This document shows, in pieces, positions 5,719 to 20,778 of a stretch of DNA of 34,828 bases (within the stretch, counting starts at the first letter, position 1; every line of letters starts with the position of its first letter). The notes beneath the pieces were generated by a model. That model made no database searches. It had not been told where the DNA came from and saw only the letters and a program-made list of their open reading frames with translations. The translations under genes and the position numbers were made by a program. Source of the stretch: Granulicella sp. L60. Lineage in GTDB: Bacteria; Acidobacteriota; Terriglobia; Terriglobales; Acidobacteriaceae. The stretch spans positions 716,474 to 751,301 of the forward strand of contig NZ_LMUR01000010.1 of NCBI RefSeq assembly GCF_009765825.1. The letters are read 5' to 3'.

Positions 5719-6810
5719 ATGCTCCGTCGTGAGTTCAATCGCAGCCTTCTCGGACTTCCTCTTGCCGCGGCAATACCCTCTCTCGCCTTCGGTGCGGTGG
5801 ACGTTGATCCTCGCTCTATGCCAGAGGGCGGTTCCATCACGGATGTTCCCGGCTTGAAGGTTGGCAACTACACTCTCACCGAGCGTCCCACTGGTTGCAC
5901 CGTCCTGATCTGCGAGTCTGGCGCAACAGCGGGAGTGGATGTGCGCGGATCGGCGCCAGGAACACGCGAGACCGATCTCCTCTCGCCCATCAATGCGGTG
6001 CAGCAGGTCAATGCCATCATGCTCTCCGGCGGCAGCGCCTATGGCCTCGATGCCGCAGGTGGCGTTATGCGCTATCTGGAAGAGAACAAGCTCGGCTACA
6101 AGATCGGTTCCCTCGGAGTTGTGCCGATCGTACCTGCAGCCATTTTGATGGACCTTGGCGTTGGCAACTTTAAGATTCGTCCAACGGCTGAGTCTGGCTA
6201 TCAGGCCTGCCTCGCGGCCAGTGCAGGGCCGGTTGCTGAGGGCAACGTAGGGGCAGGTGCAGGCGCGACCATCGGGAAGATGTTCGGTCCCAGCTTTATG
6301 ATGAAATCGGGTCTCGGCACTGCAAGCGTCAAGATCGGTGACACCGGCATCGTGGTTGGAGCTCTGGTTGCGGTGAACGCCGTGGGCGATGTGGTGCGGC
6401 CCGACACGGGCAAGATCGTCGCGGGGGCGCGCAGCGAAGACGGCAAAGGCTACCGGGACTCGATGGCAGCCATCATGGGTGGATACAATGTCGTCGCGCG
6501 CAAGGGTGCGAATACCACCATCGGCGTCGTCGCTACGAACGCCAAATTTACCAAGACGCAGATGACCAAGATCGCGCAGATGGCGCATGACGGCTACGCC
6601 CGCGCCATCAATCCCGTCCACACCATGTACGACGGCGATACGATCTTCTCGATGTCCACCGGCACCTCCGATGTGACGGCGGATGAGTCTGCAATCGGCG
6701 CTATCGCCGCTACAGTCATGGCGCGCGCCATCGTTCGTGCCGCCATGCAGGCCACCAGCATCCCGTCTCTCGGGCTACCCGCGTATCGCGACTATGCAAG
6801 ACGCGGCTGA
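5719..6810 (+). CDS. Tat-exported P1-family (DmpA/BapA/NylC-type) aminopeptidase/amidohydrolase
   Basis: 363 aa from the ATG at 5719, chosen because GAAAGG lies 9 nt upstream and because the protein then begins with a twin-arginine signal (LRREFNRSLLGLPLAAAIPSLAFGA). The mature part is a complete Ntn-fold P1/S58 protein: SITDVPGLKVGNYT at the front, MLSGGSAYGLDAAGGVMRYLEE in the middle, and KGANTTIGVVATNA at the autocleavage site. The Asn265-Thr266 junction corresponds to the self-cleavage point of NylC-like members, where the new N-terminal Thr (Ser in DmpA and BapA) becomes the nucleophile. Family members release N-terminal beta-alanine, D- or L-amino acids, or cleave 6-aminohexanoate oligomers. 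Export implies action in the periplasm, releasing amines or beta-amino acids. The copper amine oxidase gene follows 88 nt downstream. Confidence 0.9.
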   Translation: MLRREFNRSLLGLPLAAAIPSLAFGAVDVDPRSMPEGGSITDVPGLKVGNYTLTERPTGCTVLICESGATAGVDVRGSAPGTRETDLLSPINAVQQVNAIMLSGGSAYGLDAAGGVMRYLEENKLGYKIGSLGVVPIVPAAILMDLGVGNFKIRPTAESGYQACLAASAGPVAEGNVGAGAGATIGKMFGPSFMMKSGLGTASVKIGDTGIVVGALVAVNAVGDVVRPDTGKIVAGARSEDGKGYRDSMAAIMGGYNVVARKGANTTIGVVATNAKFTKTQMTKIAQMAHDGYARAINPVHTMYDGDTIFSMSTGTSDVTADESAIGAIAATVMARAIVRAAMQATSIPSLGLPAYRDYARRG

Positions 6811-18435: not shown

Positions 18436-18507
18436 CGACTTTATTTTGACTTTTTCAATTGATTGGGAAGGACTGGTTTCTGCGGGCGCAGAAGAGACTG
18501 TTGGGGG

Positions 18508-18825
18508 TCAACAGTTGGCGGGACAGAGGTCGTTGTATGAGGCGTTTGCGGAGGAGCCGCCGGCGATGGAGGGGATGATGGTGAGTTCGTCGGAGGATTG
18601 GACTGTGGTGGCTTCCTTGTTTTCGAGGTAGCGGATGTCGTCGTCGTTGAGGTAGACGTTGACGAAGGAGCGGAGCTTGCCCTCGGCGGTGAAGAGGTGT
18701 TGTTTTAGTTCGGGGTAGGTGATGGTGAGTTGTTGGAAGACCTCGGTGACGGTTGCGCCGGGGATGCTTACGGTCTCGAGGCCGCCGGTGTAGGCGCGCA
18801 ACGGGGTGGGGATGTGAATGTTCAT
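18508..18825 (-). CDS. cysO: Sulfur-carrier protein of the CysO/MoaD/ThiS type with a C-terminal extension past GG
   Basis: 105 aa. It has a ubiquitin-like beta-grasp pattern: MNIHIPTPLRAYTGG, VSIPGATVTEVFQQLTITYPELK, RSFVNVYLNDDDIRYL and DELTIIPSIAGG. In working sulfur carriers the di-glycine is the C-terminus and is adenylated, then thiocarboxylated. Here 15 residues follow it (SSANASYNDLCPANC, bases 18511-18555, two cysteines), so the tail should have to be removed first. The gene overlaps the JAMM protease gene by 4 nt (ATGA) and belongs to a cysM-mec-cysO operon. In Mycobacterium, CysO-thiocarboxylate gives sulfur to CysM, and Mec frees cysteine from CysO. QbsE/QbsD in Pseudomonas is a precedent for removing residues after GG. 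Function is inferred from family and context. Confidence 0.87.
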   Translation of the reverse strand: MNIHIPTPLRAYTGGLETVSIPGATVTEVFQQLTITYPELKQHLFTAEGKLRSFVNVYLNDDDIRYLENKEATTVQSSDELTIIPSIAGGSSANASYNDLCPANC

Positions 18826-19322
18826 TCCTGACCTTTCTGGTTGTGTTGCGCTGTTGCTGCGAGGCTGGGAGCGATGTCGATTTGAATCGCCTCATCCTCG
18901 AATTTTTTATCGTCCTCCGTGGTTCCGCTGAGCAGGAACGAGTTGGTGAGGACGGCTTTGCCCTGCTCTACGGCGGTGATGATGTAGGAGCAGCCGAGCC
19001 AGTGGGCCTCGGCGAAGTCGGTGGGGGACCACTGCGCGGGGTGGTCGGGGTGCGAGTGGTAGAAGCCAACGATGTCGAGCGAGAGGGCGCGGGCCTGGCG
19101 CTGGATCTTGATGAGCTCGCCGGGCGCGATGTTGTAGCGGTTGTGTGCGGAGTCGGTGCGGGTGTTGCCGGCGCGGACGATTTGATGGACGTGGTTTATC
19201 GCCTCGCTGTTATCTTCGCCGGGAGTGGTTTTGCCGAGGAGGACGCCGCAGCACTCGTGGGGATAGGTCTCCTGGCCGTGGGCGCGGAGGGCTTCGTAGT
19301 CGTCGAAGTGGATGCGAAGCAT
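18822..19322 (-). CDS. mec: JAMM/MPN+ metalloprotease, Mec type (CysO-cysteine peptidase)
   Basis: 166 aa from the ATG at 19322, 2 nt after the cysM stop, with CAGGAG inside the end of cysM. The frame is open much further upstream (to 20138), but there it is only the shadow of cysM. The JAMM zinc site is complete: Glu23 in PHECCGVLLG, His89 and His91 in FYHSHPDHP, and Asp102 in WSPTD. Mec enzymes hydrolyse the bond after the di-glycine of the sulfur carrier, freeing cysteine and recycling CysO. Here it may also trim the 15-residue tail of the neighbouring CysO (inference). The last codons overlap the cysO start, pointing to translational coupling. Confidence 0.92.
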   Translation of the reverse strand: MLRIHFDDYEALRAHGQETYPHECCGVLLGKTTPGEDNSEAINHVHQIVRAGNTRTDSAHNRYNIAPGELIKIQRQARALSLDIVGFYHSHPDHPAQWSPTDFAEAHWLGCSYIITAVEQGKAVLTNSFLLSGTTEDDKKFEDEAIQIDIAPSLAATAQHNQKGQE

Positions 19323-19324
19323 AT

Positions 19325-20260
19325 TTAGTTCTCCTGCCAGAAGCGTTCGCTCATGTACTTTTCGGCTGAGTCGCAGAGGATGGTGACGATGACGGCTTCG
19401 CGGCCTGCGGCGGCTTCGGCTTCGGCGATCCGGAGCGAGGCGGTGACGGCGGCTGCGGCGGAGATGCCGACGAGGAGACCATGGTTGCGGCCGAGATTCT
19501 TGACCATGGCGTAGGCGTCTTCGGTGGGCATGTCCAGATTTGCGTCGGCGAGGGCTGGGTCGTAGATGCGGGGAACGATGGCAGTGGCCATGTGCTTGAG
19601 GCCTTCGAGGCCGTTGAAGGGGGAGTCGGGCTGCATGGAGATGCAGCGGATGTTGGGGTTGAGCTCTTTGAGGCGGCGAGTGGTGCCCATGAAGGTGCCG
19701 CTGGTGCCGAGGCCGGCGACGAAGTGGGTGACCTGGCCTTCGGTCTGCTGCCAGATCTCGTTGGCGGTGGTGCGGTAGTGGGCGCGCCAGTTTTCGTCGT
19801 TGGAGTACTGGTCGGCGTAGAAGTAGCGGTCGGGCTGGGCGGCGGAGAGTTCGCGGGCTTTGCGGATGGCGCCGTCGGAGCCGTCGGCGGGGTTGGTCCA
19901 GATGACTTCGGCTCCGTAGGCGGCGAGGTAGCGTTTGCGCTCGGGGGAGACGTTGGAGGGCATGCAGAGGGTGACGGGGAAGTTGAGCGCGGCACCGAGC
20001 ATGGCGTAGGCGATGCCGGTGTTGCCGCTGGTGGCGTCGAGGAGGCCACGGGTGCCCGAGAGCAGGCCGCGGCGCTGGGCGTCGGCTACGATGGCGGAGG
20101 CGGCGCGGTCTTTGACGGAGCCGCCGGGGTTGGCCCACTCCGCTTTGCCGAGAATCTGGATGTTGGGCAGATGCGCGGTGAGGCGCTCGAGGCGGATGAG
20201 GGGCGTGTTGCCGACGCGTTCGAGGATGGTGGTGCCAAACGGTTTGAGGGATGTGATCAT
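19325..20260 (-). CDS. cysM: Cysteine synthase, CysM type (PLP fold-type II)
   Basis: 311 aa, normal for the family. The PLP lysine is K50 in NPGGSVKDRAA; the substrate loop is TSGNTGIAYAMLG (about 77-89); the PLP-phosphate loop is GLGTSGTFMGTTRRLKE. The C-terminus is LCDSAEKYMSERFWQEN. The enzyme forms cysteine from an activated serine (O-acetyl- or O-phosphoserine) and either sulfide or a sulfur-carrier thiocarboxylate. Being first in an operon with mec and cysO points to the thiocarboxylate route known from Mycobacterium CysM. No separate promoter was identified in the 104-nt gap to the divergent gene. Confidence 0.94.
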   Translation of the reverse strand: MITSLKPFGTTILERVGNTPLIRLERLTAHLPNIQILGKAEWANPGGSVKDRAASAIVADAQRRGLLSGTRGLLDATSGNTGIAYAMLGAALNFPVTLCMPSNVSPERKRYLAAYGAEVIWTNPADGSDGAIRKARELSAAQPDRYFYADQYSNDENWRAHYRTTANEIWQQTEGQVTHFVAGLGTSGTFMGTTRRLKELNPNIRCISMQPDSPFNGLEGLKHMATAIVPRIYDPALADANLDMPTEDAYAMVKNLGRNHGLLVGISAAAAVTASLRIAEAEAAAGREAVIVTILCDSAEKYMSERFWQEN

Positions 20261-20364: not shown

Positions 20365-20778
20365 ATGGCAAAGAAGACCACACACCGTAGTTTCAACGAC
20401 GTGCTCGCCATCCTTGGCGGTCAGAAGTTTGATGTTGCACCGGCAAACGAGGGTGCAAAGCGTACACCAAATGCCTTTCAGGTAAGGAAGTACGGGTGCG
20501 CGGCAGAGATTGCGGCGGCTCCGGACGGCAGCGTGGAGATACTGGCGAGGCCGGGATGGGTGCTGAACGGTGAGATTGCGCGGCTGCTGGATCGCGGGTA
20601 TCAGAAGTTTTTCAAGACGAGCAAGCTGGAGATTCCGGCGAGCGCGGACCATCTGCGGGCGATTCATGACTTCAGTGAAGAGTTGAACGAGGCGACGGGT
20701 GGAACGACGCTTTACAACGAGTCGCTGGGCACGACGAGCAATGTTTACAACTACGATCGGGTGAAGGGCCAGAAGTAA
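20365..20778 (+). CDS. Conserved-looking small protein of unknown function
   Basis: 137 aa, soluble, no signal or membrane segment. It begins MAKKTTHRSFNDVLAILGGQKFDV and contains KYGCAAEIAAAPDGSVEILARPGWVLNGEIARLLDRGYQKFFKT, then a polar C-terminus ending YNYDRVKGQK. The charged, well-ordered composition and codon use match neighbouring genes, so it is probably real. It is divergent from cysM and convergent with rsmI, 33 nt away. The ribosome site is poor (TAAAG). No family is recognised. Confidence 0.75.
   Translation: MAKKTTHRSFNDVLAILGGQKFDVAPANEGAKRTPNAFQVRKYGCAAEIAAAPDGSVEILARPGWVLNGEIARLLDRGYQKFFKTSKLEIPASADHLRAIHDFSEELNEATGGTTLYNESLGTTSNVYNYDRVKGQK

Follow-up and report, generated by a model that had tools for sequence, protein, structure and literature searches.

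A CysO-type sulfur carrier of Granulicella with a C-terminal tail beyond its di-glycine and an adjoining JAMM protease as its probable processor

A CysO-type sulfur carrier encoded by Granulicella sp. L60 is read with 15 residues beyond its di-glycine (...IIPSIAGG followed by SSANASYNDLCPANC), and its gene neighbourhood and relatives make it very likely that the adjoining JAMM protease cuts the protein after GG, allowing it to be thiocarboxylated and to feed a CysM-like enzyme. Textbook sulfur carriers, CysO included, are translated with a terminal GG ready for activation. The genes lie in a window of 34,828 nucleotides (the whole stretch of DNA analysed; contig NZ_LMUR01000010.1, positions 716,474 to 751,301), in which a minus-strand trio starts with the CysM-like synthase, continues with the JAMM gene and ends with the ThiS-family carrier (Table 1). 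The JAMM stop and the carrier start overlap by 4 nt, and the C-terminus of the carrier reads ...DELTIIPSIAGG and then SSANASYNDLCPANC, before TGA. A preliminary description of this DNA had placed a buried di-glycine and a 15-residue tail in the open reading frame 18508-18825; that reading was confirmed, and the strand (minus) was added. The gene that comes after cysO is convergent with it. Just 3′ of the carrier stop is an inverted repeat (TTCTGCG/CGCAGAA, window positions 18478-18493) without a T run, which is possibly the end of the transcript. Divergent from cysM, a 137-aa open reading frame (20365-20778, plus strand) gave no match in Pfam or NCBIfam.

Table 1. Features of the carrier operon in the window
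Feature	Position	Strand	Size or extent	Basis
CysO/ThiS-type carrier ORF	18508-18825	minus	105 aa	
Carrier body, GG-terminated (GG codons 18556-18561)	18556..18825	minus	residues 1-90	Pfam ThiS, PDB sequence match
Tail SSANASYNDLCPANC, predicted propeptide	18511..18555	minus	residues 91-105	reading frame; predicted disordered
Carrier stop codon TGA	18508..18510	minus		final codons AAC TGT plus TGA same as in relative L013
JAMM/Prok-JAB metalloprotease, predicted maturase	18822..19322	minus	166 aa	HSHP-x6-S-xx-D motif found
CysM-like cysteine synthase	19325..20260	minus	311 aa	best NCBIfam model cysM, under that model's cut-off

Pfam ThiS matched residues 3-90 of the carrier (E 7e-12), the domain ending exactly at the GG. 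The PDB sequences closest to the carrier were 4n6e_B (E 2e-16) and 3dwg_C (E 8.5e-16), both of them GG-terminated chains; the second, named cfp10A in its PDB entry, we take to be CysO of M. tuberculosis. The ThiS fold, the GG and the 3dwg_C match thus mark the carrier as a relative of CysO. The locus also resembles the CysO-CysM-Mec+ system in that a JAMM protein with its catalytic motif and a CysM-type synthase adjoin the carrier, and the genome encodes a rhodanese-bearing activating enzyme (L005, see below); it departs from that system in the carrier itself, which as translated runs 15 residues past the GG. In the AlphaFold2 model of the carrier, pLDDT was 84-91 in ten-residue blocks up to residue 80 and below 50 for residues 87-101 (numbering without the first Met), which predicts a disordered tail. 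The nearest solved relatives of the JAMM protein by sequence were 2kcq and 2kks, and the catalytic motif was kept in all 120 JAMM homologues listed.

Some tail followed the GG in each of the 120 carrier homologues listed (of 7,999 matches), and the body was strongly conserved up to and including the GG. Tails of 3 residues were found in 57 of these homologues, of 5 in 35 and of 6 in 10, the longest having 44; the closest named ones among those listed belonged to Edaphobacter, Granulicella and Tunturibacter. Edaphobacter is a genus of Terriglobales, the order of the window's genome. The exact 15-residue tail occurred in a single listed homologue (P0001, 99% identical, possibly the window's own protein), and P0002 (97% identical) had it with two substitutions. 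A survey of the order Terriglobales covered 200 genomes, of which 195 had a JAMM match and 177 a carrier match (the weak ones perhaps to another carrier). When the best carrier locus was read in 90 of these 177, mainly the higher-scoring ones, 82 CysO-like carriers were tailed, 8 were fused to an activating enzyme (E1) and none stopped at GG; in 76 of the 90 the JAMM gene immediately preceded the carrier gene, in the same orientation. The tails were hypervariable (1-31 residues, 65 distinct sequences among 82). Among the homologues, whose comparison the preliminary description had proposed, the presence of a tail is conserved; its sequence and its number of cysteines are not. Homologues all ending at GG, which that description had named as the outcome that would count against it, were not what was found. 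The rarity of the exact tail, limited to one listed homologue that may be the window's own plus one close variant, might have pointed to a stop loss, a sequencing artefact or a non-functional carrier; the tails of all 120 listed homologues, the residues beyond GG in all 90 order loci and the conservation of the body through GG rule out an artefact or a recent stop loss, and leave this explanation with practically no probability. The tail of one CysO-like carrier (L039) repeats the end of the body, PSIAGG being followed by SPSIAGG and then CCCNL; this is apparently a tandem duplication, and it yields two possible GG sites. A similar repeat was seen in a locus from another phylum (L268: PAIAGG, then SDARRFCAPAIAGG, then KD).

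Burial of the GG was not confined to CysO. A Pfam ThiS search of the window's genome found four carriers, all four with a buried GG. ThiS, which scored 66.7 bits with TIGR01683 (cut-off 37.45), ends with VHFVGGG followed by CGSE; the carrier directly behind threonine synthase (TIGR00260, 280.9 against a cut-off of 167.1) ends with IPSIAGG followed by SL. The fourth, MoaD, continues after PPVSGG into MoaE in one fusion protein (Pfam ThiS, then MoaE). A tail peculiar to CysO was thereby ruled out. In seven further order genomes, picked for their few contigs and known JAMM and with carrier types assigned by likeness, 28 of 28 carriers were buried; in the eight genomes where all four carrier types were read, the GG of every carrier was thus followed by a tail or by an entire enzyme. 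The tail noted originally is real, but its scope had been drawn too narrowly, since it is a family-wide trait that, in the order genomes examined whole, affects every carrier type, and it often takes the form of an entire E1. A carrier of another genome (L171, G082), similar to the ThrC-linked one, has a 26-residue tail (CPDDCSARRPVLRCCSYCGQEDCTCY) whose seven cysteines recall a small zinc-binding motif.

In the eight fused loci of the order, one frame holds the GG, a linker, a ThiF/MoeB domain and a rhodanese domain (domains checked for L054). Forty further JAMM loci were fetched, 38 from outside the order and two from inside it (L122, L151; no carrier in the stretch). Thirty-five of the 40 held 36 carriers (25 E1 fusions, 10 with tails, 1 GG-ending), so the ThiF-rhodanese fusion is the most frequent arrangement of the carrier where JAMM loci occur in the rest of the phylum. 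A protein search that used just the carrier end of one fusion matched 6,725 of 8,000 scored candidates, and the GG, a short linker and an E1 start were present in 115 of the 120 fusion proteins listed. Several of these carrier-E1 proteins (in Terriglobus and Acidipila) are annotated merely as MoeB, and a pro-carrier would explain what they are. The window's genome has instead a standalone E1-rhodanese (L005, 418 aa) on another contig, which matched over its full length a profile built from the fused forms (Pfam ThiF, E 3e-80). Its start, ...LTEELVELPKLTNDEIARYSRHL, closely resembles the stretch of the fused L054 that spans the linker and the beginning of the E1, ...GTATELPKLTNDEIARYSRHL, and because of this resemblance the sequences suggest that the tailed carrier may have arisen by splitting of a carrier-activator fusion. 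An apparent JAMM-carrier-E1 protein (P0203) is truncated and seems to have been joined by a frameshift; it was set aside. Locus L117 (G207) has two CysO-type carriers within 10 kb, at 2593-2857 and 5757-6021, one ending exactly at GG and the other running on into the E1, next to JAMM. Two further frames of the window's genome, L007 and L008 (G000:C1:392-1600 and G000:C20:25664-26815), each combine ThiF and JAB matches; these E1-JAB fusions are probably different systems.

Residues beyond the GG and a JAMM gene occur together in the window's genome, and the association was followed across genomes. Twelve order genomes in which JAMM was clear had 38 of 38 carriers buried; this count includes six of six in the order genomes that keep JAMM and have no CysO match (G002, G048, G051, G078). 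In the phylum, 128 of 297 genomes matched the window's JAMM and 169 did not; 13 of the latter were examined, two of which had no carrier, and G200 was moved out, its PF14464 match being a real JAB, yet its one carrier ends exactly at GG. In the ten that remained, 19 of 19 carriers ended exactly at GG, including the CysO-type L182; six of these genomes count as JAMM-less only if weak PF14464 matches are discounted, the one in G216 lying just above the Pfam cut-off. PF14464 gave either no match in these genomes or a weak one (E 2e-5 to 7e-4, in frames of 223-290 aa that we suspect to be RadC), and five TGS-domain-like frames (L195, L196, L200, L203, L204; RelA- or ThrRS-like by eye) had been dropped. 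Five order genomes had no JAMM match. Of these, G127 has a ThiS ending exactly at GG, G190 and G191 had no carrier match, and G023 (73% complete) was left out; G093 (98% complete) has a GG-ending ThiS and a MoaD-MoaE that is still fused, with an internal GG (L212), so that either a gap in the assembly hides JAMM or MoaD-MoaE is processed by a different protease. One of the three carriers of these genomes was thus buried. In G062 and G064, order genomes with a divergent JAMM, ThiS is GG-ending and MoaD-MoaE is fused.

Eight JAMM-bearing genomes from outside the order, chosen from JAMM loci already read and hence with their JAMM-linked CysO known beforehand, had 16 of 27 carriers buried and 11 GG-ending, after L245, L246 and L247 had been dropped. 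The 16 comprised all eight JAMM-linked CysO-type carriers, five MoaD and three ThiS. L247 (G322) and L246 (G278) have ThiS-like domains inside larger frames, one with a GG and ∼480 further residues, the other as the ThiS-like C-terminus of a 646-residue frame. When pooled, carriers were 56 buried and 14 exact with JAMM versus 1 and 21 without it (Fisher P = 1.4e-10, kinship uncorrected); the association among the named genomes alone was weak (P = 0.054). These data support the conclusion that burial of the GG tracks the JAMM gene across genomes, with exceptions, and agree with the earlier proposal of a pro-protein whose putative processor is the adjacent JAMM. The GG-ending carriers of JAMM-bearing genomes rule out that JAMM implies a tail; it is chiefly the tail that implies a JAMM.

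When named genomes were scanned with a CysO alignment, the best 80 of 579 relatives were kept; they came from Actinomycetota, Chloroflexota, Nitrospirota, Zetaproteobacteria, Planctomycetota and others. Of these 80, 58 were tailed, mostly by 1-3 residues, 21 ended at GG and one was cut by a contig end. Among these best 80, JAMM lay within 5 kb of 44 of the 58 tailed carriers versus 15 of the 21 GG-ending ones. Twelve of the 14 tailed loci without a nearby JAMM were searched as whole genomes (L268 and L324 were left out), and 11 had a strong Prok-JAB, so that a JAMM, near or elsewhere in the genome, was found for 55 of the 58; for the tailed L249, none was found in its 1.6 Mb assembly. For the six GG-ending carriers without a nearby JAMM, five genomes were searched, two having a strong JAB and three weak matches only. 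JAMM does not imply a tail, then, because many GG-ending carriers coexist with it, the textbook CysO among them. Since short CysO tails are widespread in other phyla, the pro-carrier idea in its basic form extends beyond this lineage; and since many JAMM-accompanied CysO relatives are tailed, the GG end may define the M. tuberculosis protein and not the family.

The composition of the tails raises a question separate from that of burial. Cysteine made up 21.9% of the residues of order CysO tails (137 of 627, in 61 of 82 tails) and none of the 8,100 residues of the bodies; 21 tails of the 82 lacked it, as did all ten CysO tails from elsewhere in the phylum. Of the order tails, 61 of 82 began with C, S, T or A; of those from other phyla, 35 of 57 did, M also being frequent there (10), after L253 and L283 had been dropped from this comparison. 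Single-residue tails were Cys in 5 of 10 cases in the order and in 10 of 19 in other phyla, many of the latter close relatives. The tail cysteines of the order are encoded by TGT 117 times and by TGC 20 times, against 109 and 1,177 in the JAMM, CysM and E1 genes of the same loci. With bodies clustered at 80%, TGT led in 16 clusters and TGC in 9, with 2 ties; and nine order loci that share the peptide CCSCC had an identical TGTTGTAGCTGTTGT, despite sharing only 14 of 65 residue-invariant body codons. Rare TGT codons therefore point to a constraint at the nucleotide level as much as at the protein level, and the tail might be mainly a nucleic-acid or translational element, the rare UGU at the 3′ end of cysO causing ribosomes to pause under cysteine scarcity or acting as an RNA signal, with the peptide as a by-product; this could coexist with processing. 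Mycobacteria have short polycysteine ORFs that serve as attenuators (PMC9094748), so a translational cysteine sensor would be a guess backed by precedent. The position of the codons fits such a role poorly, as it is the trio's final gene that carries them, at its 3′ end and next to a convergent gene, and less carrier during a cysteine shortage would be a response of the wrong sign. A conserved RNA fold was not seen in the 15 of 82 TGT-rich ends folded, the Rfam search around the window's operon gave no relevant family (best E 0.37) and the eight fused genes of the order showed no TGT motif at their 3′ ends. The tails of other phyla, moreover, use TGC (11 of 11 Cys), as do most ThrC-linked tails, and a quarter or so of the order tails have no cysteine to encode. 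A mainly translational role is on balance unlikely, though it deserves consideration.

The enrichment of cysteine in the tails and its absence from the bodies could also speak for the redox-sensitive lock that the preliminary description had suggested for the two tail cysteines; in such a redox- or metal-sensitive lock, tail cysteines would bind zinc or form disulfides and keep the carrier uncut until conditions change. The JAMM protein does have an invariant Cys pair beside a conserved Glu (14 sequences), but neither the number nor the spacing of tail cysteines is conserved, and the Cys-free tails counted above leave the lock without specific support; we consider it very improbable. A better case can be made for neutral drift, by which a JAMM present anyway for cysteine release trims whatever lies past the GG and stop codons are free to wander. 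The hypervariable length and sequence of the tails favour it, the tail of L079 resembles (by eye) the translation of sequence found downstream of other loci, and JAMM-less genomes of the phylum retain an exact GG. Against drift stand the 90 order CysO loci, none of which stops at GG, and the Cys and TGT biases. It is a serious possibility, if somewhat short of an even one.

In the reading preferred here, the carrier would be translated as a pro-protein with an internal GG and a C-terminal tail, and JAMM would cut it after the di-glycine; the trimmed carrier would be adenylated and thiocarboxylated and would pass its sulfur to the neighbouring CysM-like enzyme for cysteine formation, after which JAMM may release cysteine from CysO-Cys, as Mec+ does. 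The same JAMM may also mature ThiS, MoaD and the ThrC-linked carrier. A GG-Cys junction is the same linkage as that of the CysO-cysteine adduct, so tails that begin with Cys would fit the existing specificity of the protease; such a tail would mimic the adduct, and the pro-form may enter the cycle at its last step. More tentatively, and with somewhat less than even confidence, it may be proposed that in Terriglobales all ThiS-family carriers (those for cysteine, thiamin, molybdopterin and a ThrC-linked pathway) are precursors, that a single JAMM is their obligatory maturase and that the UGU-encoded Cys tail of CysO responds to cysteine. If so, one proteolytic event would control the flow of sulfur to cysteine, thiamin and the molybdenum cofactor, and a small protease that databases call 'proteasome lid subunit RPN8/RPN11' would likely be essential for several cofactors at once. 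These carrier precursors parallel the ubiquitin precursors and polyproteins of eukaryotes. The pro-carrier concept is already known; what is new is burial across the whole genome, together with the polyproteins of carrier and activator and the Cys tails encoded by TGT.

Residues after a carrier GG are removed by a JAMM protease in the QbsE/QbsD system of Pseudomonas and the HcyS/HcyD system of Wolinella, where the tails have one or two residues and belong to one carrier in one pathway. The window's carrier resembles QbsE and HcyS in having residues beyond the GG together with a JAMM that may cut them off; it differs in that here 1-31 residues or a whole enzyme are appended, and to all four carriers of the genome. 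CysO-CysM-Mec+ is a cysteine pathway of M. tuberculosis in which Mec+ hydrolyses the CysO-cysteine adduct (PMC3227635, as far as available). The window has the same trio of carrier, cysteine synthase and JAMM, with the rhodanese E1 elsewhere, but its carrier is tailed while the 3dwg_C chain is GG-terminated. The carrier also scores with SAMP1 (NCBIfam, 56.2 bits, cut-off 60) and JAMM with desampylase (78.5 bits, cut-off 130), both below cut-off; in contrast to SAMP1/HvJAMM1, as presented in the available part of PMC4443979, the genes here give no sign of protein conjugation. In the literature searched, mostly outside subscription journals and in part as excerpts, no order-wide carrier tails and nothing on Terriglobus sulfur carriers were found. 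According to the portions accessible, DRJAMM cuts a MoaD-MoaE fusion in Deinococcus radiodurans (PMC8832034) and MoaX is cut between Gly82 and Ser83 by a protease then unidentified (PMC4326299). In these too the GG is internal to a fusion, and cleavage after it is needed for activity; in relatives of the window's carrier, by contrast, what follows the GG is that carrier's own E1 or just a short tail, and ThiS and CysO are affected as well. Operon class 4c of Iyer 2006 (ThiS/MoaD, E1-Rhd, JAB and cysteine synthase, with an acidobacterium included) is identical in kind to the gene set of the window, and its authors suggested a possible role for JAB in releasing carriers from fusions with other proteins (PMC1779556, in the part available). 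Relative to what that part covers, the tails, the carrier-E1 fusion and the genome-wide pattern go beyond class 4c.
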